Origin: Candidatus Pelagibacter sp.
GTDB lineage: Bacteria > Pseudomonadota > Alphaproteobacteria > Paracaedibacterales > CAIOTO01
Reading direction: 5' to 3'
DNA length: 64,000 nucleotides
Assembly (NCBI GenBank): GCA_013823725.1
Contig: PNMQ01000004.1
Span: 183,156 to 247,155, forward strand
Below the pieces are notes generated by a model. It was not told the origin of the DNA. It saw nothing but the letters and a program-made list of their open reading frames with translations, and did no database searches. This document shows positions 7,055-62,033 of the stretch, piece by piece. Within the stretch, counting starts at the first letter, position 1. Every line of letters starts with the position of its first letter. The position numbers and the translations under genes are program-made.

Positions 7055-8215
7055 ATGGTGAAGATTTATATTATTACAGGAGAAACTTCTGGAGAGCAAC
7101 TAGCTTTTTCTATTTTAGAAAAATTGAATAATCAATCTATAGCTTCAGATAATCATTCACTCACGATCAAAGGTGTTTGGAGCCATGAATTTCAAAAATC
7201 TTTAACTTTTCCCAACATCAATGCCCAACAAGCCTTCAGCAACGACTTTTTAAGTATCATGGGGTTTTCCAATGTTATCCGCCACTTTTTTAAAATTAAA
7301 AAAGAAAGAAATAAAATTTTAAAAGATATTTTATCTTTCCAACCTGACATTATTTTAACATTCGATGCACCGGATTTTAATTACAATATCTTAAAGAAAT
7401 TAAAAAAAATCTATCAAAAACTATCACTTAAAAAACCATTTTTTTTTCATTTTGTAGCTCCTACAGTTTGGGCATGGAGACCTTGGAGGGCAAAATATTG
7501 GGCCAAAATTTTAGATCATATTTTCTGTCTTTTCCCTTTCGAGCCTCCCTATTTTATCAAAGAAGGATTACAAGCTACATTCATAGGTCACCCCTTAGTT
7601 ACAGAATATCATTCCTCTGAATTTCAACATGCCAAAACAACAAAATTTTCTGATTCAAAAGACACTTATGACTTTGCATTTTTGTTGGGCAGCAGAAATA
7701 AAGAAATAGAATGCCATCTTCCTTTTTTTAAATCTCTTTACGAACATATCAAAAATGATCCTATCAATCTAAATTCTAAAATTGTTATTCCAACTTTTGA
7801 AAAATATTTACCACTTCTGCAACAGCATTTTCCTGACGCTATATTTATAACTCATCTTTATGAACGAAGAAAAGCATTATGCTACAGTAAAAAAGCCATC
7901 GTCGTCAGCGGAACAGCAACTCTTGATTGCGCCCTTGCCTATACACCTATGATTGTCGTGTATAGAACAGATAAGTTTTCAGCATGGATTGCCAAAAAAT
8001 TAGTGAGCACACCGTATTTTGCATTACCCAATATTTTATCCGCACAGAAAATTGTACCTGAACTGATTCAAGAAAATTTAACTTTAGACAATTGTATACA
8101 AGCTTTAAAAAAAATAGATATGCAGGACTTACATTATTTTAAGTCTATAGAAAAATCTTTGGACCATGAAATCAGTTTAGATTCCTTCTCTGAATTGTTT
8201 ACCCCAAAAGAGTAA
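7055..8215 (+). CDS. lpxB: Lipid-A-disaccharide synthase
   Basis: Joins UDP-2,3-diacylglucosamine with lipid X to form the lipid A disaccharide at the inner membrane. Family motifs seen are TGETSGEQLA at the start, SIMGFSNV, APTVWAWRPWRAKYW, FIGHPL and SGTATLDCAL (GT19 family). I chose the ATG at 7055; an in-frame TTG lies at 7049. At 386 residues it is of normal length. The usual lpxD-fabZ-lpxA neighbours are missing, so it is a detached lipid A gene. Its presence implies that this organism makes lipid A, which some intracellular relatives have lost. Confidence 0.93.
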   Translation: MVKIYIITGETSGEQLAFSILEKLNNQSIASDNHSLTIKGVWSHEFQKSLTFPNINAQQAFSNDFLSIMGFSNVIRHFFKIKKERNKILKDILSFQPDIILTFDAPDFNYNILKKLKKIYQKLSLKKPFFFHFVAPTVWAWRPWRAKYWAKILDHIFCLFPFEPPYFIKEGLQATFIGHPLVTEYHSSEFQHAKTTKFSDSKDTYDFAFLLGSRNKEIECHLPFFKSLYEHIKNDPINLNSKIVIPTFEKYLPLLQQHFPDAIFITHLYERRKALCYSKKAIVVSGTATLDCALAYTPMIVVYRTDKFSAWIAKKLVSTPYFALPNILSAQKIVPELIQENLTLDNCIQALKKIDMQDLHYFKSIEKSLDHEISLDSFSELFTPKE

Positions 8216-8255
8216 ACGCCTTAAATATTTTTTTAAAAAAAGGAGGGAATCAAAA

Positions 8256-8465
8256 TTATTCGTTTATGAACTCAAATCTTTTAGCCTTTTGACCTTCTAT
8301 TTCTATTTCTTCTAAAAACATATCTAGTGGGCGAACCCACACCCCATAGTCTCCATACAATGCTCTGTATACAACTAAATTCTCCAAAGTTTCAGAATGT
8401 CGAGCTATATCAATAAGTTCGTACATTTGACCTTTATAATGTTTATATCTTCCTTTATTTATCAT
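8256..8465 (-). CDS. DUF1653 family small protein
   Basis: The 69-residue product matches the DUF1653 pattern over its full length: GRYKHYKGQMYELIDIARHS, then ETLENLVVYRALYGDYG and WVRPLDMFLEE, ending in the RFE block. These are short soluble beta-rich proteins of unknown function. No signal peptide or metal motif is present. It is convergent with lpxB and downstream of a short gap that may hold a degraded reading frame. Confidence 0.85.
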   Translation of the reverse strand: MINKGRYKHYKGQMYELIDIARHSETLENLVVYRALYGDYGVWVRPLDMFLEEIEIEGQKAKRFEFINE

Positions 8466-8601
8466 TTTCTTCCTTTTTCATTAAGTTTTTTTGATAAGCT
8501 CTCATTAAATAAAGTATTCCTTCTTTTATGGCTTCACCTGATGCCACTAATTATAGTTTCATCCATAAATTTAACTTTTCCGAATCAAAAATCAAAAGAC
8601 G

Positions 8602-29069: not shown

Positions 29070-30773
29070 TTATTGTTCATTCATAACAAACTGAGGCACA
29101 ACAGAAAGGTATGCCTCCTTTTTTTGTAATTTATTCTCTACTACATTCGGTCCTTGTTCGGTCATGTTCATCGTGATTTGGGGATTGAATGATTGTTGTA
29201 AATCACTCGAATCATTTTCTTTTTTTGGGGATCCCTCATGGTATGTTAAAAAAAATTCTGGTTTTAAATCAAACCATTCTTTTTCTTTTTTTTCTTCATT
29301 CAACGGATCGGTAGAAAGAGCAACAGGTGTAGGCTCTTTTGTTTCTGTCCGAAACATATCATTTTCTATAACTACACTTGGCGTGTTTGGAATGACATTT
29401 TTTTTATAGACTTCTGTTTCCTTTTTATTTGCTCCTTTATCTTCAACAAGATGAGGAACATTACTAACAGTAACACTGCTGGAGTCCACTATTAACTTTG
29501 GTATATTAGACTGATCGGTTTTATTTTCTATCTTTTTTGGCTTGGATGCTTTTTTTAAAGGATCAGATCGATTGATAACTGTCTTTTGTGGATTCAAATC
29601 AACATTGGAAGGCATTAAATTTTGACTACGAGCAGGAATCTTTTTAATTTCTTCCTGAAAAAATTTTGGGGTAACTTTTTTAAGTCGGCTAAAAGATCCA
29701 CTTAAAATACCCGTAATGGGTAATGTCAAGGCAGACCTTGGTTGAATTTCTTGAAGCTTCTTGTTTTCATGAATAGGAATAATTCGTGGTGGCATAATCT
29801 TTTGAATAACCGTTTCGTTACTTTTTGTAGCAGTAGCCAATAATAAAGTTTCTATTTTTTTTTGTTGTAGTTTTGTATTTATTACGTCTTTATTTTTATC
29901 AACGCTCTGAATTTCTGGAAAACTTTTGAATTGATCGGCTGCTTCCACTATTGCTTTCTTATTCAGCTCTGTATTTGTTTGACTTAAATCCTTTTGCTTG
30001 GGGTCCTGGATTGGTTTAATTTCAAAGTTTGTATTACCCCTGTGTTCTTGTTTTTGGATAGGAACGGATTTTCCAATTTTTTCTGTCAAAGCCTGACTTT
30101 CATTTTTGTATTGCTGAAGATTCAAAAATCCTTTTTGATATTCTATCTGAAGCTGTTGCAATACATCCAATCGAGGAGCTTCAATATTTTTTAAACTTTG
30201 CAAATATTGATCACTTTGAACATTTAAGTTTTTAATCTGCATCTCTATAGATTCAATTTTTTGATTCATTTCATTTTTTTGCTGTTCAATTTCAGTTAAC
30301 GCCAAAAGATTGCTTTCTTTTTTGGACTCTTCCATTTTCTGATTCAAAAGCTGAATTTGAGCTTTTAAATACAATTTACTATTTTCTAGAAGAACTATCT
30401 CCGATTTGACTTTTAAAAATTGATTATGAATTTGTGTTCTCTGTATTTGCGTTTTAAAAATCACTTGGATTTGTGATAACAAACTTTCCAATTGTGGGGT
30501 TGCCTTTTCTATCCAGACATCTACAAACTGCTTTCTTGTTATTAATGTTTGCTGATCTTCTAACGAAGCAGTAGCTGTCAAACTTTCATTGGGAAGTTTA
30601 GTATTCTTCAATTCTGATAGATCAGTGGTTTGAGGTGCATTATAATATTGTGCTTGCATTCGTTCTGTTTCGGGAACAATAAAATATTGTTCCGTCCCAA
30701 ACAAAATCGATGAACACCCCATCAACAGAAGAATAAAAAAACAACTTCTTTTTGAAATAAAATGAAGCTTCAT
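29070..30773 (-). CDS. Exported coiled-coil, low-complexity protein
   Basis: Not recognised. Start taken at the ATG at 30773 (a TTG lies upstream at 30791). The N terminus is a signal sequence with a possible lipobox LLMGC. Residues about 90-210 form a long coiled coil rich in Gln, Leu and Glu; after this the chain becomes a disordered Lys/Pro/Thr/Asn-rich tail to residue 567, with no cysteines. It is likely a periplasmic or surface structural protein. Convergent with yraN and divergent from the next exported protein. Confidence 0.55.
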   Translation of the reverse strand: MKLHFISKRSCFFILLLMGCSSILFGTEQYFIVPETERMQAQYYNAPQTTDLSELKNTKLPNESLTATASLEDQQTLITRKQFVDVWIEKATPQLESLLSQIQVIFKTQIQRTQIHNQFLKVKSEIVLLENSKLYLKAQIQLLNQKMEESKKESNLLALTEIEQQKNEMNQKIESIEMQIKNLNVQSDQYLQSLKNIEAPRLDVLQQLQIEYQKGFLNLQQYKNESQALTEKIGKSVPIQKQEHRGNTNFEIKPIQDPKQKDLSQTNTELNKKAIVEAADQFKSFPEIQSVDKNKDVINTKLQQKKIETLLLATATKSNETVIQKIMPPRIIPIHENKKLQEIQPRSALTLPITGILSGSFSRLKKVTPKFFQEEIKKIPARSQNLMPSNVDLNPQKTVINRSDPLKKASKPKKIENKTDQSNIPKLIVDSSSVTVSNVPHLVEDKGANKKETEVYKKNVIPNTPSVVIENDMFRTETKEPTPVALSTDPLNEEKKEKEWFDLKPEFFLTYHEGSPKKENDSSDLQQSFNPQITMNMTEQGPNVVENKLQKKEAYLSVVPQFVMNEQ

Positions 30774-30920
30774 ATGGTTCTTTTTAATCAAATTATAATT
30801 TTATATATACTTAGACTATTTTTCTTTCGTTAAGATGAATTTAACATTCCCATAAATATCTTGAACTTAAATTTTAAATTTTGTATTTTGAGATCATTCC
30901 TAAAACATACAAGAAAACAA

Positions 30921-33035
30921 ATGTTAAACAAATATTTTACCAAAAAGACTGCTTTTTTATTTCTTACTGCTCTTTTTACAAAATTTAGTCAATTATCCTG
31001 TAGCGTTAATACCTTAGATCGCGAACATATTACACAATGTCTTTCTAATCTTAAGATTGTACCTATAGAAATATCAGCTGAAAATTTAAAACAGTGTTCT
31101 TTAGACATGTATAAACTTAATACTTTTAATGAAAGTGTTAAGTATCTTATACATGCGTATTCTATAGCAATATCACGTAGAGATGTTCAAACTGCCGCTT
31201 ACAGTATCTTGTCTCATTTTCAAGATAAGTGTAATGAATTGAGAACAGAATCTCTGCAGCTTACTAACGAAGATTTTCGTTGGAAATTTGGTGCACTTTT
31301 TTGTTTACCACACAGGTTTATTTTTTACTTACAAAACAGTGCAGAAGCTAGAAAATACAATGATGATCTTTTTGAAATCATTAACAACACAAACTTTAAA
31401 ACATTTTCTGCAACAGATGCATCTTCGATATCCCTACCAATAGAACCCTATTCTAAAAACCTTTTGGAAGATGATATTCTCTTTATACTGAATTTATTCA
31501 CTCTAAAATATACATGCGACTCTCATTCAAAATATGGCACTTTTGCTGTTGAATTTAAACTGCCAACACTTGTTGAAAAATTAACAACAGATTCACACTT
31601 TCAAAATTATCTTTTCACCTATTTTGAGCATACCTGGATTGAAATAGAAAAATCCTTTGATGTATATGGTGATACAGTATTACAAAAATTCTTTGCCAAA
31701 CAAAAGACGTTTCTCAATTCACAGAAACATCACATTATCATTTCGGCCCCTTATCTAAGATCGACCAATCTGTTATCTTCACTATATTATGTTTGCCGTC
31801 ATTTATTTGAAGCACGACAAGACATAAAAGTTGAATACGAAAAGACGCATCAAAAAATGAAAGCCATATCATTAACTCAGGAAGTCAAAAGTAGCAACAG
31901 TCTAACAACTCCTAAAAAGAAGAAAACCAAAAAGAAAAGCAACAAATCAATATCTAAATTAAATATAATTGGGCAATCAGAATCACAAGAAGTTAGCCCA
32001 ACTTTAAAGGGAGACCTTGAAAAAATTGATCCTAACACATTAGCTTCTTCTTCAGAAATCCAAGAAATTAATCAAGCTGTAGAATCGAATTCTCAAATAG
32101 AAAACAGCCTTGAATTAAAATCCCATTATGAAACCATACCCCTTTCCATAAACACTTTATTGGAAGAAAGAACAGATGAAGAATTTTGTGCTCCCCTAAT
32201 ACAAAGTAATGGAGAACCAGATCTAAAAGAGAGTGAATGGACAACAGTTAGTACTTCAAAAAAAAAGAATACATTAAAATCCTCCACCCCAAAAGAAATA
32301 GCACCTAAAATAGATCATAAAAAAAGGATAGAGGATCGCAAGCCTTCTTCTATCATTAATTCTACGAAGACAAAAAAGCATCAAGAAAAAGCTCAAAACG
32401 ATGAAAAGAGAATGGGCAATATTACTTACGCAACAGTTACTGCATCACAACAAAATTTACCAAAACAAAAGCAACCATCACACAATGATTCTTCAAAAGA
32501 AACAGATATAACTGCAGGGACCATCGATAGAATCGTCCCTGTTTCCGATCTCGTTCTACAAGAGACAGATATAAATACAGTAATACCAGCAACTTCAACC
32601 ATCACCGAAATTATTTCTGAAGAGTCACGAGATCCTGAAAGACTAAAGCCCCCAACATTTGTAGAGCGAAGCACAGAAACTGAAGAGAAAAATATTTTAT
32701 CTTCATCTCAAATGCAACGAAAAGATTTATTGGAAAACCCAGTAATAGTACATCAGACGATATTCTCATCCCAAAATTCTCTTAATACAACCAAAAATAA
32801 ATTCAGGAAACATACTATATATCAACCCAGTACCGTTTATATTCCTTATCCTGTTTATGTGCAAGTTCCCACAATCTATTATCCCCAAGAAACCTTTGAA
32901 TATGGGTATAATAGTAGTGGCTATTGTAGTGGTTTGATCTGTATTAATGGTTTAGCGCATTTTTGGATGGAAAAAAAAATTGAACGTTCTGCATATTTTC
33001 AGTGTCAAACATGTTCTTTGATCATCCAAAAGTGA
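30921..33035 (+). CDS. Exported protein with Lys/Ser-rich linker, unknown function
   Basis: Not recognised. The ATG at 30921 gives 704 residues with a signal sequence (KTAFLFLTALFTKFSQLSCS). Residues about 30-310 look globular and helical with scattered cysteines; about 310-620 is a highly charged, low-complexity linker (Lys, Ser, Glu, Thr) with a KKKKTKKK tract; the end has a Tyr/Pro-rich part with VYIPYPVYVQVP and a cysteine set (YCSGLIC, FQCQTC) that could bind metal. Possible surface or secreted protein of a host-associated cell (inference). Confidence 0.55.
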   Translation: MLNKYFTKKTAFLFLTALFTKFSQLSCSVNTLDREHITQCLSNLKIVPIEISAENLKQCSLDMYKLNTFNESVKYLIHAYSIAISRRDVQTAAYSILSHFQDKCNELRTESLQLTNEDFRWKFGALFCLPHRFIFYLQNSAEARKYNDDLFEIINNTNFKTFSATDASSISLPIEPYSKNLLEDDILFILNLFTLKYTCDSHSKYGTFAVEFKLPTLVEKLTTDSHFQNYLFTYFEHTWIEIEKSFDVYGDTVLQKFFAKQKTFLNSQKHHIIISAPYLRSTNLLSSLYYVCRHLFEARQDIKVEYEKTHQKMKAISLTQEVKSSNSLTTPKKKKTKKKSNKSISKLNIIGQSESQEVSPTLKGDLEKIDPNTLASSSEIQEINQAVESNSQIENSLELKSHYETIPLSINTLLEERTDEEFCAPLIQSNGEPDLKESEWTTVSTSKKKNTLKSSTPKEIAPKIDHKKRIEDRKPSSIINSTKTKKHQEKAQNDEKRMGNITYATVTASQQNLPKQKQPSHNDSSKETDITAGTIDRIVPVSDLVLQETDINTVIPATSTITEIISEESRDPERLKPPTFVERSTETEEKNILSSSQMQRKDLLENPVIVHQTIFSSQNSLNTTKNKFRKHTIYQPSTVYIPYPVYVQVPTIYYPQETFEYGYNSSGYCSGLICINGLAHFWMEKKIERSAYFQCQTCSLIIQK

Positions 33036-40082: not shown

Positions 40083-40916
40083 TTACTTTTTAATTTTTAA
40101 AGTTTCTTTTTTGGGCTTCGACTCAAAAACAGATAACGGCTCCGATTTTATAAGAGCATAAGCATCCTTGTACCAAGAACTATTTGGATAATTGTGACCC
40201 AAAACAGATGCGTATTTTTGTGCCTCTCCATTTAAGCCCAGCATCATACAAACTTCTGTGGCCCTAAACAATGCTTCTTGAACTTGTGCTGTGCTTTGGT
40301 ATTCTTTAATCACATATTTAAAACGGTTTAGCGCAGCGATATAAGATTTTTTCTTTAAATAAAAACGCCCAACAGCCATTTCTTTTGCTGCCAAATGATC
40401 TTGAATCAAAGAAATTTTCAATGTAGCATCCTTGGAATAATCAGAAGATTTAAATCTCGACACAACCTCTTGAAAGGCCTCTAATGCCTTTGCTGTTGGT
40501 TCCTGGTCTCTTTCAACTATTGGAATTTGTTCGTAATAACAAAGACCTATCATGTAATACGCATAGGCCACATCACCATGACCCGGGTGTAGTTGAACAA
40601 ATGATTTAAAACCATCAATTGCATCGTCATAGCGTTTTGCCTGGTAGTAACAATACGAAGACATGAGTTGTGCCTTTAAAGCCCAGTTTGAGTAAGGGTG
40701 TTGGCGCTCTACATCAGCAAATGCTTTTGCCGCCTTTGTGTAGCTTTGTTCTTTAAAAAGATCGTGAGCTTGCACATACAGATCTTCAACAGGCTGATCC
40801 AGTAAATCGTCTGATTCGGTTTGACACCCAACCAAAAATAAAAGCCCCATCAAAAAACTTACATTTCTAAATCCAGATACAAGATTGTTTTTTGTGTTTA
40901 AAGGAAAGTAAATCAT
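40083..40916 (-). CDS. bamD: Outer-membrane assembly lipoprotein BamD
   Basis: Essential partner of BamA in inserting beta-barrel proteins. Start at the ATG at 40916 (MIYFPLN); a TTG lies five codons upstream. A lipoprotein signal ends at LVGCQ; the mature part consists of TPR repeats, e.g. KAAKAFADVERQHPYSNWA and DAIDGFKSFVQLHPGHGDVA. 277 residues. Lies upstream of recN in the usual order; the outer-membrane machinery is therefore present. Confidence 0.95.
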   Translation of the reverse strand: MIYFPLNTKNNLVSGFRNVSFLMGLLFLVGCQTESDDLLDQPVEDLYVQAHDLFKEQSYTKAAKAFADVERQHPYSNWALKAQLMSSYCYYQAKRYDDAIDGFKSFVQLHPGHGDVAYAYYMIGLCYYEQIPIVERDQEPTAKALEAFQEVVSRFKSSDYSKDATLKISLIQDHLAAKEMAVGRFYLKKKSYIAALNRFKYVIKEYQSTAQVQEALFRATEVCMMLGLNGEAQKYASVLGHNYPNSSWYKDAYALIKSEPLSVFESKPKKETLKIKK

Positions 40917-41014
40917 TATTCGCAACAACAAAGGTTTTTTCTATTCATACCATATTTAAATCCAGAACGCTATGTGAAAGACAATAATACCATACAGTCA
41001 AATACTTGCTCGCT

Positions 41015-41701
41015 TCAAAAAAGCAGAGGAGACACGTTAAATGTAACGACGATGTGATTTTTTTCTGAAACAGAAAAAACAAGATAGTCAAAAGAAAAGA
41101 CCTTTTTTGCGTCATCTATTTCATCTTTAAAAGAAGGTCCTTTTAAATAAACCCCATACGCACTACTTTTTAGTAAATTGCTGTTTTTGATTTTCTTTGA
41201 AAAATCATGCCCTTTGTTTACCAGAATTTCCTCAACGTTTAAAAGTTGAACATCCTCATGTTGTCGAGACTCTGAAAGTTCATGTTGTACTTTCAGAAGA
41301 TTTTTCAAGGCCGAAAAGCCTCGTGCACAAAAATATGCGTATCTTTGCTTCAAACCAAACACATCTTCATTCAGCACTTTTCCTGGCAAATGAAGATGGT
41401 GAAGCATATATTTTAAAAATGAAGCTTTTTTAGAAATGATTTCACACATATGTGGCGTCAAACCCAATAGGGGTAAAATAAGTCCAGGAAAACCATTTCC
41501 CGAACCTATATCAAGAATTGGAGCATCTTTGGGGAAGAATTGTGCCAAGAGTACTGATTCATAAATATGACGTTCCCATAAATCTGTGCTATCTCCTTTT
41601 GAAATAAGATTATGGGTTTTATTCCATAGGGAAAACTCTTCAATGAAAGTAGTAAATTTTGTTTCTTGTTCTGTTGTTAATAAAAGTAAGTTTTGTTTCA
41701 T
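41015..41701 (-). CDS. rsmG: 16S rRNA m7G527 methyltransferase RsmG
   Basis: Also called GidB; methylates G527 of 16S rRNA using SAM. Motif I is ILDIGSGNGFPGLILPL, with LWERHIYESVLL before it and FCARGFSALKNLL after. 228 residues, somewhat divergent towards the C terminus. In many bacteria it sits by mnmG and parAB near the chromosome origin; here its start faces the probable oriC, about 60-350 bases away. Confidence 0.9.
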   Translation of the reverse strand: MKQNLLLLTTEQETKFTTFIEEFSLWNKTHNLISKGDSTDLWERHIYESVLLAQFFPKDAPILDIGSGNGFPGLILPLLGLTPHMCEIISKKASFLKYMLHHLHLPGKVLNEDVFGLKQRYAYFCARGFSALKNLLKVQHELSESRQHEDVQLLNVEEILVNKGHDFSKKIKNSNLLKSSAYGVYLKGPSFKDEIDDAKKVFSFDYLVFSVSEKNHIVVTFNVSPLLF

Positions 41702-41834
41702 GTTGATTTTGTTTTGTTTTTATCTTCTTGACCTTATCAAAAAAAAACAAAGCTTTCTCTAAAAAAATAAAAAAGGTTTATCTATATATTAATATATTAT
41801 TTATTATGTTGTTTTTAGAGGGGGTGTTGAAGAG

Positions 41835-41843
41835 TGTGCAAAA
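41835..41843 (-). promoter_or_regulatory. DnaA-box-like 9-mer
   Basis: Reads TTTTGCACA on the minus strand, one mismatch from TTATNCACA. Part of the probable oriC. Confidence 0.4.
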
Positions 41844-41846
41844 CTA

Positions 41847-41862
41847 TTAACGAAAAATTAAC
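41847..41862 (+). promoter_or_regulatory. CtrA-type box 1
   Basis: TTAACGAAAAATTAAC: an exact TTAA-N7-TTAAC, the full CtrA consensus of Caulobacter. In the probable oriC, next to a DnaA-like box. Confidence 0.65.
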
Positions 41863-41874
41863 CTTTGTCTTTTG

Positions 41875-41890
41875 TTAAGGATTTGTTAAC
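41875..41890 (+). promoter_or_regulatory. CtrA-type box 2
   Basis: TTAAGGATTTGTTAAC: a second exact TTAA-N7-TTAAC, beginning 28 bases after the first in the same orientation. Confidence 0.65.
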
Positions 41891-41941
41891 CTTTTCACAG
41901 CTTTTTGATTCATGAGTTTCAATTGATAATGGGGAAACCGA

Positions 41942-41950
41942 TGTGGACAA
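41942..41950 (-). promoter_or_regulatory. DnaA-box-like 9-mer
   Basis: Reads TTGTCCACA on the minus strand, one mismatch from TTATCCACA. Confidence 0.45.
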
Positions 41951-42012
41951 AGGGTGAGTTGTTAGACTCTATTTATTCAAAGTTTATCTTGTTGATTGTT
42001 TCAACGTTTATA

Positions 42013-42027
42013 TTAAGGCTTCATTAA
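42013..42027 (+). promoter_or_regulatory. CtrA-type box 3
   Basis: TTAAGGCTTCATTAA: an exact TTAA-N7-TTAA without the trailing C, close to the aroE start and to a DnaA-like box, so it could also control aroE. Confidence 0.5.
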
Positions 42028-42031
42028 ATAG

Positions 42032-42040
42032 TTTTCCACA
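42032..42040 (+). promoter_or_regulatory. DnaA-box-like 9-mer
   Basis: TTTTCCACA, one mismatch from TTATCCACA, 25 bases before the chosen aroE start. Confidence 0.45.
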
Positions 42041-42064
42041 TTGGTTTTTAAAAGGATTTCGGCT

Positions 42065-42931
42065 TTGAGTATTGCAAAAAAAGTCTCTTTAGGTGTTTTT
42101 GGTAAGAATATTTCCTACTCTCTTTCTCCTGTTGTTTATGATGCGTGGTTTAACCATTTTAATATTAGTGGTCATTGTTCCTTGATTCAAAAAAACATGT
42201 TTGATTTTGAGGAAGTTTCTTTGGAATTTAGTAAGTATTATGGCTGGGCCATCACTGTGCCCTACAAAGAAAAAATTGTTGAATGGCTTAAAACACACCC
42301 TTCTGCATCGTGGGACAGTTGGGTTGAGGAACTAGGCGTTGCCAATATCATAAAAAACAAAGAAGATTGCGTGGTGGCCACTAATACAGACGCTTTGGCT
42401 CTTGGTTTTTTTCTTTCTCAAAATGATTTTACTGAAAAGCTAAAGTTTTCTAAAAACGTATTGATTTTAGGTGGAGGGGGTGTTGCTAAAACATCGGAGG
42501 CTGTGCTGAAAAGAATCATGCCAGAGCAGAGGTCTTTCAACATTTACATGGCCCAGCGAAATCTTGTGGGTAAGGACTGTAAAAACAATATATCTCTCTA
42601 TGATTTCAAAACAATGGAAAAAATAGGTTTTGATGTGATTATTAATGCCACTCCTATGGGAACATCAAGAAATGAAGAGCATCATGTTTTGACGGAAATT
42701 AGTGCGGTTTTGAAGCAGAATAAAGGATCACTTGTCATAGACTGGGCGTACGATGTGACCCCTACATTTTGGGACTGTTGGACCAAACAAGAGGATGTTC
42801 TGTTTTTGGGTGGCACTGATTTGTTAATACAGCAAGCAGCCTTTGCTTTTGAATTTTGGTTTGGGCTTGTTCCGCCTTTGTTTTTAGCAAAACAAGCCAT
42901 TGAAAGCGCTATAAGCAAAACAGAGGTTTAG
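42065..42931 (+). CDS. aroE: Shikimate dehydrogenase
   Basis: Reduces 3-dehydroshikimate to shikimate with NADPH. Substrate-binding SLSP near the N terminus, catalytic Lys in ITVPYKEKI, NTDALALGF, the glycine loop LGGGGVAKTS and NATPMGT. I prefer the TTG at 42065 because AAAGG lies about eight bases upstream; the frame extends to a TTG at 42041 which lacks one. About 288 residues. Its stop overlaps the end of the broken methyltransferase by four bases. The maf-aroE-coaE-dnaQ order near alphaproteobacterial origins fits its place. Confidence 0.92.
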   Translation: MSIAKKVSLGVFGKNISYSLSPVVYDAWFNHFNISGHCSLIQKNMFDFEEVSLEFSKYYGWAITVPYKEKIVEWLKTHPSASWDSWVEELGVANIIKNKEDCVVATNTDALALGFFLSQNDFTEKLKFSKNVLILGGGGVAKTSEAVLKRIMPEQRSFNIYMAQRNLVGKDCKNNISLYDFKTMEKIGFDVIINATPMGTSRNEEHHVLTEISAVLKQNKGSLVIDWAYDVTPTFWDCWTKQEDVLFLGGTDLLIQQAAFAFEFWFGLVPPLFLAKQAIESAISKTEV

Positions 42932-43538
42932 AGAAGCGGGTTTTTCCATAGGTGTGTTTTTTTAACACCGCCACCATGGTAGTGCAAAATTGTTTCCATT
43001 TTTAAATTAAAGGGTGGCTGTGTTAGGTCAAGGGGTCTCCAACCACCGGGCTGTATTTCTTGGTTTATGGTTTGGTGGGCTAGTTCTTTTCTGTTTTCAA
43101 CACAATTTGTGATTAGTACATACTTGAATTTTGACATATACTCTATAAAACTTAAGACTCGGCTATTATCAAGATGTTGAAGCACATCTTTGATTATGCA
43201 TAAATCTGCTGATTCCACCTTTGAAAAGTCACCGTCATACAACTTAAAACAAACGTTTTCTTTGGTGTGTTGAGTCTTGTTTTTTCAATAACAAAATTTG
43301 CAACATCATATCCTGTGTATTGTTTTTCTTCTGGAATCTCTACAAGAGACATGATCTGCCAATCTCCGCATCCTACGTCGACAATAGTCTTTATGTCTTT
43401 TTGTTTGATGATTTGACTTAGTTTTCTTCTGTCGGCTACTGTGTTTTGAGAGAACGACCCGTCTCCGGACCCCCCTCTCCAAATATCGTGTTTGTAGATA
43501 TAGTCAAACTGTTCGTTTAAGTTTACCCCTTCTTTCAT
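42928..43538 (-). pseudogene. Class I SAM methyltransferase, broken by one frameshift
   Basis: The first reading frame (from the ATG at 43538) holds WRGGSGDGSFS, then VDVGCGDWQIM and YTGYDVANFVI; it stops early. The rest, in the -1 frame, has VESADLCIIKDVLQHLDN, YVLITNC and GGWRPLDLTQPPFNL. Joined, they form one complete methyltransferase of a common family. The shift falls in the AAA run at 43261-43263: one extra A would join the parts without gap. Either a real single-base loss or a homopolymer error. It starts with TAATG overlap to the aminotransferase, so it belonged to the same unit. Confidence 0.8.
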
Positions 43539-58762: not shown

Positions 58763-59205
58763 GTAAATCCCAACTAACAAATAAAATTAAAGCTTTAAGC
58801 CATTTATCGCGTGTTGAAAAGATGAAAATGAACGAGTGGATGGTTCAAAAAGCTGAAATAGTTCAAAAGATAAGTACTATTGATTTTAATATTCAAGAAA
58901 TTGAGAAAAAAATGAATGATGAAGGTCAACCTTCTCGTGAAACGATGCTTTACTTAGAAATTTATTCAAAATATATGGCACAAAAAAAAGAACAGCTTTG
59001 TATTGAGAAAAAAAATCTTGTTTTAGAGTTAGATAAAGCACAAGAAAATTTAATCCTGTATTTCACACAGCACAAGACACATGAAAACCTTCAGCAATAT
59101 ACTTTTGATGTATTAGATTTAACGATTCAAAAAGAACAAAGAGAAACCTTAGACGATATAGCGATGTTAGGTCATTCAAGAAAACAGAAAAGACTTGATT
59201 ACTGA
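58759..59205 (+). CDS. FliJ-like coiled-coil protein (candidate)
   Basis: The 148-residue all-helical product is a long coiled coil. Its plan, an antiparallel hairpin with a turn near MNDEGQPSRET and an end reading QKEQRETLDDIAM, resembles alphaproteobacterial FliJ (the C-terminal REQxELDxIAL block), an escort protein of the flagellar export ATPase. The identity rests on this pattern only. The ATG overlaps the upstream HATPase gene (ATGA). The gene ends seven bases into the convergent exported repeat gene. Confidence 0.45.
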   Translation: MSKSQLTNKIKALSHLSRVEKMKMNEWMVQKAEIVQKISTIDFNIQEIEKKMNDEGQPSRETMLYLEIYSKYMAQKKEQLCIEKKNLVLELDKAQENLILYFTQHKTHENLQQYTFDVLDLTIQKEQRETLDDIAMLGHSRKQKRLDY

Positions 59206-60821
59206 CTTTGGTCCTTCATTTCAGGCATCAAATTTAAAATGCTTTGGGTTTTTTCTTCTCCAAAAATGTTATTTTGTAGCATATTAACCAAATTAAGCCT
59301 GTAGTTGTTTCGTTCTTCAAGTGATACTTTTTCATCTTGTAGAACCTTTTTAAATAATTCAACACCGGTCATTAGAACGTTGTCAGAGCTTTCTGTAGGT
59401 TTGAGTAGACCTTGTATATAGTATCGCCCTAAAATCCAACGAGCCTGAGCAATAAAGGATGGATTTTGTTTGTCGTCATTAATAATGCTCTCTAGAATTT
59501 CTATAGCACGTTTCTGTGCTTCTTTTGCTGTTTGTTTAAAGTCGTTATTTACAAAATGTTCCACAATATTGATCTTGAAATCGTTCACCTGATCTTTTGG
59601 TACATTAAGATCTTGTAATAATTCATCAACAATACTTAAAGCTATAGAGCGGGATTCTGAAGGGGTTTTTTCAAAAGAATTTTGTAAATATAATTTAACG
59701 AGATTCCCCTTAAAAGCAAAACGATGCTTTTCTGTTAGCTGGGCTTGAGTTGTTGCTTCGTTGAATAACATCTTTGCTTTTTCTCGCGCTTCTGATGGTC
59801 TAACATCAAATGCATTCATTAAGTAGTTAGTCCCTATAAGCCATTTAATGTGTGCTGTTATTAAAGGAGATAAATTTTCAAATGACAAAGCGCTATTAAT
59901 GATTTGAAAGCGTCTTTCCATAATTTGTTTTGGGGATAAATTATCATTTGTATAAAACTGAACGTAATTAAACAATGCCATAATAGCTTTAGCTCTTAGG
60001 TCAGCTGGCATATTTTTATCTTTGGCCACATCTGAATAGATATTATAGGCTAATTTTATAGGCAACTTATCTGTTGCTTGAAAAAATCCTTTTAAGTATC
60101 CCATGGCAAGCTGCATTTTTGTACGGCCTACAGTTTCACTGTTTAGATTTTTGACTTTAAGATTTGTTTCTAATAATTCTTTGGCTTTTTTTAGTGCCTC
60201 TTCTTTAGGTAGGTCATAAAAACTTTTTTGGTATAGTTTGGACTGAAATCTACGTGCCCAAGCTTTCATGTCTTCTGAATATACAGAATCATTTAAAACT
60301 TCATTGACGAGAGTAAGAACCTGATTTTTTGACCGAGATATTACTTCTGGGTTTGTATTATTTTTAATAAGAGTGACATATATTTTTGCGGTGTTGATTT
60401 TTGCCCTTCCTCTTAAGTCAGAACTAACCGTATGATCTGCAACAATTAAGTCATATAATCTTATAGCTTCGTTTAGTGATTGCTCAAACGTAAAATGCAG
60501 GCGGTGGTTTCTATGATCATCTGCCGTTTTTAGTGCAGATAGAGCTAGATCATCATTGGGCATTTTGCCTATATTTTTTTTGATGGGTGCTTCATCATCA
60601 GAATTTTCACTTTTTCGTGTAGATGTGTTTTTGCTGGGTTTGTCTGATGCTTCATAGTCTACATCTGTATCTTTTTGAATATTTGAGATTTCTGAATCGT
60701 CAAATTCAAGATCTTCAGCTTTTTTTTGCCCCATTGTTTCCGAGCATTCTGATGAAGTGTAGAGTACTAAAGAGCTGTAGCAGCAAAATATTTTTAGAAA
60801 CTGACTAGCTTTTTTGTTCAT
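59199..60821 (-). CDS. Exported protein with about nine tandem helical repeats
   Basis: Not recognised. A signal peptide (1-27, ending near SSEC) precedes an acidic Ser/Asp-rich stretch; from about residue 115 to 530 come about nine repeats of 42-50 residues, each with a P-x-EA-x3-A start (PKEEALKKAKELLE, PSEAREKAKMLFNE, AKEAQKRAIEILES) and a Leu/Tyr helix end. These are TPR- or Sel1-like solenoids with a regular spacing. 540 residues. First of three exported genes on this strand reading leftward; the order suggests a joint function. Confidence 0.62.
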   Translation of the reverse strand: MNKKASQFLKIFCCYSSLVLYTSSECSETMGQKKAEDLEFDDSEISNIQKDTDVDYEASDKPSKNTSTRKSENSDDEAPIKKNIGKMPNDDLALSALKTADDHRNHRLHFTFEQSLNEAIRLYDLIVADHTVSSDLRGRAKINTAKIYVTLIKNNTNPEVISRSKNQVLTLVNEVLNDSVYSEDMKAWARRFQSKLYQKSFYDLPKEEALKKAKELLETNLKVKNLNSETVGRTKMQLAMGYLKGFFQATDKLPIKLAYNIYSDVAKDKNMPADLRAKAIMALFNYVQFYTNDNLSPKQIMERRFQIINSALSFENLSPLITAHIKWLIGTNYLMNAFDVRPSEAREKAKMLFNEATTQAQLTEKHRFAFKGNLVKLYLQNSFEKTPSESRSIALSIVDELLQDLNVPKDQVNDFKINIVEHFVNNDFKQTAKEAQKRAIEILESIINDDKQNPSFIAQARWILGRYYIQGLLKPTESSDNVLMTGVELFKKVLQDEKVSLEERNNYRLNLVNMLQNNIFGEEKTQSILNLMPEMKDQSQ

Positions 60822-60860: not shown

Positions 60861-62033
60861 TTAGTCATTAGGTTTATAATCTAAAGCGACTCTTGCGAAA
60901 CATACATTGTCTTGGTCAATGGGAAAGGGTAGCAAGCTATAATATTTTGAATCTCTTGTGCCTTCTTTATCTTTTCGTCCGCCATATTTAATTTCTTCGA
61001 TTTTACCTGTGCCCATTTTTTTAAAAAATGCTTCATAGTTTGGAAAATCGGTGTAGTGAATATTCGACACGGTTTTATCATCTTCTAGTTTTCCACCAGT
61101 TGGATCTTTGATAAAACCATTTTGAAAGTTTTTATCATTTGAAATGGCAAAGAAAAGTGAATCACTTACTTTAGTAACGCATACCACAGATTGACTTACA
61201 GGGATAGAGTTCAGTAGTGTTTTTTGATATTGGGTCATAACTTCTTGGCGTGATGGTACTTTTTCGTTTGGGCCAGCAGATGCTGCATCAGGTATGACAG
61301 GTGGGTTAGCTTTTATGTATTTTTCTACGGCTATTTCGATAAGGCGGCTATGTGGTATGCTATCTGACTCTGGATTTGGAGGCATTACAACTTTCTTGGC
61401 AGGGTCTGTTATGGGTGGTTGCGAGAATCGCGTGTAGCATATGTAGTCACCTGTTTGGTCTAAAGGAGATATATTGAATTGGTAATTTTGTATGCTTGTT
61501 GGTGATGAAGCCAAAACAATTTGGTGTGATGTTACATTGGGCCGTTCTGTTTTTGCTTCTTTAAATGCTTGTGATGCACTTACGTAAAACGTTGAGATGT
61601 TTCCTATATCTGCTTGATTGGTGATTAGCCCATCTTTGTGATCTTGTTTGGAGAGTCTATAATAATATGTCTTGATAGAATTAGCACCGTTTATGTTTTC
61701 TGTCTTTTCAATTTTTGTAACGCATTCAATTCCTTGATCTACGACTACTGAATTCATTATTGCTTTTATTATTTCTGCTGAGGTGATATTTGGATTTGTG
61801 TTTTTCATATCCACAATAATTTTTTGAATATCCATAGCAAAATATAATGGTGCTTTTGTTTGTTCTTTAGTTGAAGGTGCTGGTTGTGGGGGAGGTGAAG
61901 GTTGAATGTTCTCGCCTGTTTCACCTAGTGTGGTTTGTGTAAAAATAGCGACGCTAGATAAAACGCATCCCACATAAGTGAGTAATTTGTGGGTTTTAGT
62001 TATTGAAAATTTACTTTTTTGCATTTTTAACAT
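60861..62033 (-). CDS. Exported protein with two copies of a cysteine-bounded module
   Basis: Not recognised. After a signal peptide (about 1-37) and a Pro-rich linker, residues about 68-203 and 232-383 are copies of one module. Both read (IM)NS..V..-CVTK near the start (Cys104, Cys285) and end with ..D..-x-(IV)C(YF)-x-R (Cys199, Cys378), with about 93-95 residues between the cysteines. A disulfide per module is likely in the periplasm. The next gene shares the module. 390 residues. Confidence 0.6.
   Translation of the reverse strand: MLKMQKSKFSITKTHKLLTYVGCVLSSVAIFTQTTLGETGENIQPSPPPQPAPSTKEQTKAPLYFAMDIQKIIVDMKNTNPNITSAEIIKAIMNSVVVDQGIECVTKIEKTENINGANSIKTYYYRLSKQDHKDGLITNQADIGNISTFYVSASQAFKEAKTERPNVTSHQIVLASSPTSIQNYQFNISPLDQTGDYICYTRFSQPPITDPAKKVVMPPNPESDSIPHSRLIEIAVEKYIKANPPVIPDAASAGPNEKVPSRQEVMTQYQKTLLNSIPVSQSVVCVTKVSDSLFFAISNDKNFQNGFIKDPTGGKLEDDKTVSNIHYTDFPNYEAFFKKMGTGKIEEIKYGGRKDKEGTRDSKYYSLLPFPIDQDNVCFARVALDYKPND

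Follow-up and report, generated by a model that had tools for sequence, protein, structure and literature searches.

In Caulobacter and Rickettsia, the chromosomal origin of replication is found in the pattern hemE-[ori]-COG1806 (PMC1914354). Our literature search found no paper mapping an origin in Holosporales or Paracaedibacter. We analysed a stretch of 64,000 nucleotides (contig C2, positions 183156-247155) from a draft genome of 1.256 Mb (nine contigs, 98.5% complete), referred to here as the window, in which the gene-free stretch 41702-42064 is very probably the single origin of the chromosome and a reduced version of the origin typical of alphaproteobacteria. Neither hemE nor RP001 (COG1806) flanks this gap, and it lies on the 5' side of what is elsewhere the maf-aroE-coaE block, whose transcription runs outward from the gap; aroE is the sole member retained. 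The sequence-only reading had already proposed a probable chromosomal oriC here, and that proposal is supported by the switch in strand bias, by the switches and box clusters on the aroE side in relatives and by the enrichment of sites in the gap.

The gap separates the divergent genes rsmG (minus strand) and aroE (plus strand), and its GC content is 28%, against about 33-34% for the genome (30-39%, mostly 33-34%, in 15-kb samples). The aroE ORF opens at TTG 42041, and a ribosome-binding-like AAAAGGA favours TTG 42065 as the start, so that the gene-free stretch ends at 42064; the coordinates first given for a stretch of about 360 bases between the two genes therefore hold. No match was found in an Rfam search of 40900-43000. 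Beyond aroE, two overlapping minus-strand ORFs in different frames (42928-43538) look like one SAM-dependent methyltransferase with a frameshift or sequencing error, and long ORFs (390-724 aa) without a Pfam match were noted at 29070-30791, 30861-33035, 59199-60821 and 60861-62033. The features of the gap and its flanks are collected in the table.

Table. Features of the putative origin and its flanking genes (window positions).
Feature	Position	Strand	Basis
Left flank: rsmG (gidB), reading outward from gap	41015..41701	-	PF02527 1.4e-27; TIGR00138 92 bits, just below 99.5 cut-off
Putative oriC, gene-free stretch rsmG-aroE	41702..42064	.	Skew switch interval; top combined site score in 484 kb; aroE position as in relatives
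AT-rich tract, probable DNA unwinding element (inferred role)	41759..41818	.	Among the least stable 0.1% of 60-mers in the 484 kb sampled
DnaA-like box A, TTTTGCACA	41835..41843	-	Matches TTDTNCACA; two mismatches from TTATCCACA, one from TTATNCACA
CtrA-like box 1, TTAACGAAAAATTAA(CC)	41847..41861	.	TTAA-N7-TTAA match
CtrA-like box 2, TTAAGGATTTGTTAA(CC)	41875..41889	.	TTAA-N7-TTAA match
DnaA-like box B, TTGTCCACA	41942..41950	-	One mismatch from TTATCCACA; matches TTDTNCACA
IHF-like site, AATCAACAAGATA	41985..41997	-	WATCAN5WTR consensus match only
CtrA-like box 3, TTAAGGCTTCATTAA	42013..42027	.	TTAA-N7-TTAA match
DnaA-like box C, TTTTCCACA	42032..42040	+	One mismatch from TTATCCACA; fits TTWTNCACA
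Right flank: aroE-like shikimate dehydrogenase, reading outward from gap	42065..42931	+	PF08501 and PF18317 (SDH_C) above cut-off; TIGR00507 119 bits, below cut-off 200

The cumulative GC skew of the window had a single minimum, at 41383, and a change-point fit with block bootstrap placed the negative-to-positive switch in a 95% interval of 40757-42065, which includes the gap. The earlier claim that strand bias changes at the gap is thus confirmed; the narrower prediction of a minimum at 41.7-42.1 kb was matched by the interval and not by the point estimate, which falls 320 bases inside rsmG. To the left of the gap, GC3 skew was -0.229 in 26 minus-strand genes and -0.185 in 9 plus-strand genes, and to the right it was +0.230 in 11 minus-strand genes and +0.148 in 9 plus-strand genes. 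Because the sign flips at the gap for genes on either strand, the cause is replication rather than transcription. Skew was also sampled across the genome, in the window and 32 stretches of 15 kb from all nine contigs (about 544 kb in total, a sample and not the whole genome). On contig C2, it was negative all the way up to the window and positive beyond it as far as the contig end, with a steady sign in the 15-kb samples over 200 kb leftward and 90 kb rightward. Contigs C1, C3, C5 and C7-C9 were negative or near zero, C4 was positive, and the 52-kb C6 was mixed and near zero; these samples revealed no second clear switch from negative to positive. The parB gene adjoins parA and is found at C2:264034, at a distance of 39 kb from the gap.

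The three TTAA-N7-TTAA boxes reported earlier were found at 41847, 41875 and 42013, against a mean of 0.14 in 5000 dinucleotide shuffles (P = 0.0002). Several CtrA boxes in the gap are thus accompanied by a ctrA gene, as expected of a CtrA-controlled origin: the encoded protein scored 385 bits with NF045991 (cut-off 350), and its best solved match was 4qpj, a CtrA receiver domain. Searching the phage collection with CtrA returned nothing useful. The DnaA-like boxes are more degenerate. No perfect TTATCCACA is present in the gap, and of the three 9-mers first described as having one mismatch each, this is true of TTGTCCACA and TTTTCCACA (two such boxes, P = 0.006 in shuffles), while TTTTGCACA has two. 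A DnaA-box cluster as expected at an oriC is therefore seen only under the relaxed consensus TTDTNCACA, with three boxes against a shuffle mean of 0.10 (P = 0.0004, an optimistic value because the consensus was picked after the boxes were seen). The consensus of the three is TTKTSCACA, and all of them differ from TTATCCACA at position 3. Boxes A and C have AATAGTTTTSCACA in common (13/14 positions), boxes B and C have TTKTCCACATYGGTTT in common (14/16), and the two kinds of inverted pair occurred together in 0/400 shuffles. Judged by sequence, the relationship among the three boxes extends past their cores into the flanks. Beside the boxes lies the AT-rich tract that had been pointed out before; its least stable 60-mer, 41759-41818, is the predicted unwinding element. 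Since 25 other places in 484 kb are as weak, AT-richness alone proves little.

When 360-base windows over 484 kb were ranked by their combined number of DnaA, CtrA and IHF sites, the gap had the highest count, 6 (2, 3 and 1, respectively). The next ranks were taken by repeat-gene codons in C2:303988-318987 (L028) and by a CtrA-type cluster without DnaA boxes. The three DnaA-like boxes also rank at the top of the genome sample under their own consensus, which is not independent evidence, since that consensus was drawn from them. The DnaA-like 9-mer clusters of L028 were rejected as an origin because they are TGTGGAAAA codons of CGKGG repeat proteins in a region of uniformly positive skew. This region encodes giant Cys/Gly-rich CGKGG-repeat proteins (ORFs of 1986 and >2138 aa) and has a GC of 0.39. 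Three clustered CtrA-type boxes at C3:53550, upstream of dnaA, were set aside for their negative skew and for having no DnaA boxes within one mismatch, and a relaxed-box triple on C1 (L018:10842) for its uniformly negative skew. At L030:3550-3580 on C3, about 1.2 kb upstream of dnaA, the three TTAA-N7-TTAA boxes lie in a gap that may hold a CtrA-regulated promoter.

In two genomes of the same family, the skew change-point also lies upstream of aroE, at 8400 in the gap 8190-8546 (G004) and at 7224 in the gap 7121-7352 (G003). These gaps contain 5 and 4 perfect TTATCCACA boxes, respectively, including those that reach into the start of aroE as annotated, and one CtrA-type box each. In the rest of the order, DnaA-box clusters also border aroE on its 5' side, either immediately or with maf in between. 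All order members read at aroE carry one or more perfect TTATCCACA in the origin cluster; the present genome has none. The change-point of G029, from a different family, was blurred. Gene orders, in which the names of genes not profile-scanned were read from sequences, form a series that begins with the canonical hemE-[gap]-RP001-maf-aroE-coaE-dnaQ of G050, a member of the same class. It continues with hemE-[gap]-maf-aroE-coaE (G023 and G016; without coaE in G009), hemE-[gap]-aroE-coaE-dnaQ (G029 and G032), mipZ-[gap]-aroE (G031, G024 and G018), Bax1-I-[gap]-aroE (G004 and G003) and rsmG-[gap]-aroE in the present genome. A conserved TAGTATTAGTAG that resembles a DnaA-trio was observed in the G004 and G003 origins (L101 about 8330-8350 and L106 about 7180-7200); it was not recognisable in the window.

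Of the genes expected near oriC (gidA/gidB, hemE, maf and aroE), rsmG (gidB) and aroE flank the gap, mnmG and maf were not found, and hemE is on another contig. In searches of the draft genome, RP001 (PF03618), Maf (PF02545) and mnmG/gidA (TIGR00136) were not found, though rsmG is kept. A clear hemE-RP001 origin at another locus would have contradicted the present reading, and none was found in the genome: hemE, at C1:364188, has a pabA/trpG-like gene on one side and a methyltransferase gene on the other, adjoins neither RP001 nor maf, and lies where the skew is uniformly negative.

Two other explanations of the locus were weighed. The skew switch might be a by-product of gene orientation or of a recent inversion, with no origin involved, and it is true that 26 of the 35 genes left of the gap are on the minus strand. 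This is contradicted by the GC3 skew, whose sign on either side of the gap does not depend on the strand of the gene, by the distance over which the sign holds along C2 and by the switch of same-family genomes at the homologous place, and we consider such a by-product exceedingly improbable. Somewhat less remote, and still very unlikely, is that the gap is only the divergent promoter region of rsmG and aroE under CtrA-type regulation, with the true origin some hundreds of bases, up to a thousand, from it. The gap must hold both promoters, and TTAA-N7-TTAA also occurs at ordinary CtrA-regulated promoters, the triple upstream of dnaA being similar. However, this is the only sizeable gap in 40757-42065, the other being about 80 bases long; it has one weak sigma-70-like match, no more than expected by chance; its DnaA-like boxes are repeated with common flanks; and relatives have clear DnaA-box clusters at the same place.

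If the gap is the origin, as we favour, initiation there and its control can be inferred along the following lines. DnaA would bind the three DnaA-like boxes, which lie among the CtrA boxes, open the AT-rich tract and load the helicase for two forks. One fork would pass through rsmG and the other through aroE, in each case codirectionally with transcription, and, as in Caulobacter, CtrA bound to its three boxes would hold the origin inactive.

The dnaA gene is located at C3:54758 (L002:1435-2832; 528 bits), and its product was compared with those of 21 relatives. Domain III is near normal, with 74% identity to order members and 79-80% to the same-family G001 and G003, while domain IV shows a mean identity of 43.5% to order members and 61-63% to G001 and G003. 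Among the domain IV positions invariant in the other genomes, 6/27 are changed in the present DnaA; when six other genomes were put through the same test, the result was 0/33 in five and 2/35 in the sixth. In E. coli numbering, obtained from an alignment with 1j1v, the changes include R405Y, P406A, Q408H, L422Y, P423V and G431D, and the residues kept are R399, R407, D433, H434, T435, T436 and H439. A loss of R399 had been considered and proved wrong, as the 1j1v alignment shows R399 kept and positions 405, 406, 408, 422 and 423 changed. Base-specific contacts come from residues 399, 423 and 432-439 (PMC5043019), and the 5' TTA of the box is read by R399 (PMC5742627).

The divergence of both domain IV and the gap boxes from the form seen in relatives suggests co-drift, as far as sequences from one genome of the genus can indicate. 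A fuller proposal, which we put forward tentatively and hold to be rather doubtful, is that the DnaA-box code has drifted in this lineage: domain IV, with P423V, L422Y, R405Y, P406A and Q408H and with R399 and the helix-5 contacts kept, would read TTKTSCACA with flanks of AATAG before and TYGGTTT after, and control of the origin would lean on extra CtrA sites. We give about an even chance to the simpler view, itself compatible with an origin in the gap, that the boxes are weak but ordinary sites, that the origin works like any other and that the divergence of domain IV is unrelated drift. All three boxes fit relaxed consensus sequences of other bacteria, TTTTCCACA and TTTTGCACA the E. coli TTWTNCACA and TTGTCCACA the M. 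tuberculosis YWRTCCACA (PMC5043019); the key residues R399, D433, H434, T435, T436 and H439 are retained; and H. pylori DnaA has a leucine at 423, hence no P423, which does not explain its box (PMC5043019). Against this view stand the number of altered invariant positions in domain IV, with none in five of the six relatives tested and two in the sixth, beside a near-normal domain III, and the deviation of all three boxes at position 3, set against one or more perfect boxes in each order member read at aroE.

The evidence places an origin, with good support, in a symbiont lineage where hemE, RP001, maf and gidA, the customary markers, fail, and the 5' side of aroE is the landmark that survives in the order. 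The locus also provides a case in which co-drift of DnaA, a nearly universal initiator, with its box can be tested. Like Caulobacter crescentus Cori and Rickettsia prowazekii oriC (definitions as in PMC1914354), it groups sites of the DnaA, CtrA and IHF types within a gap some 360-400 bases long and more AT-rich than the genome, and its forks would exit through divergent genes belonging to the origin cluster conserved in alphaproteobacteria. Unlike those two origins, which occupy the hemE-RP001 gap, it has neither gene as a flank and its DnaA boxes are degenerate. In the Wolbachia origin (COG1253-hemE gap, PMC1914354), one classic flank has likewise been lost by rearrangement, but hemE is the marker kept there and aroE the one kept here. 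Within the family, its counterparts are the Bax1-I-aroE gaps of G003 and G004, similarly placed upstream of aroE with a skew switch and a CtrA-type box; they differ in their 4-5 perfect TTATCCACA boxes and in the gene on the other flank, and the DnaA of G003 (recovered in full from this genome and not from G004) has a standard box-reading face, unlike the present one. In epsilonproteobacteria, too, DnaA and box variants pair a lineage-specific change of domain IV with a shift in the consensus of the box (PMC5043019). There, the change involves recognition helix 5 and a TTCAC core, whereas the present genome differs at 405-408, 422-423 and box position 3 and keeps the helix-5 contacts and the CACA core. 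This is thus an ordinary kind of origin in an eroded gene neighbourhood, and what is new is the divergence of DnaA domain IV and of the boxes.
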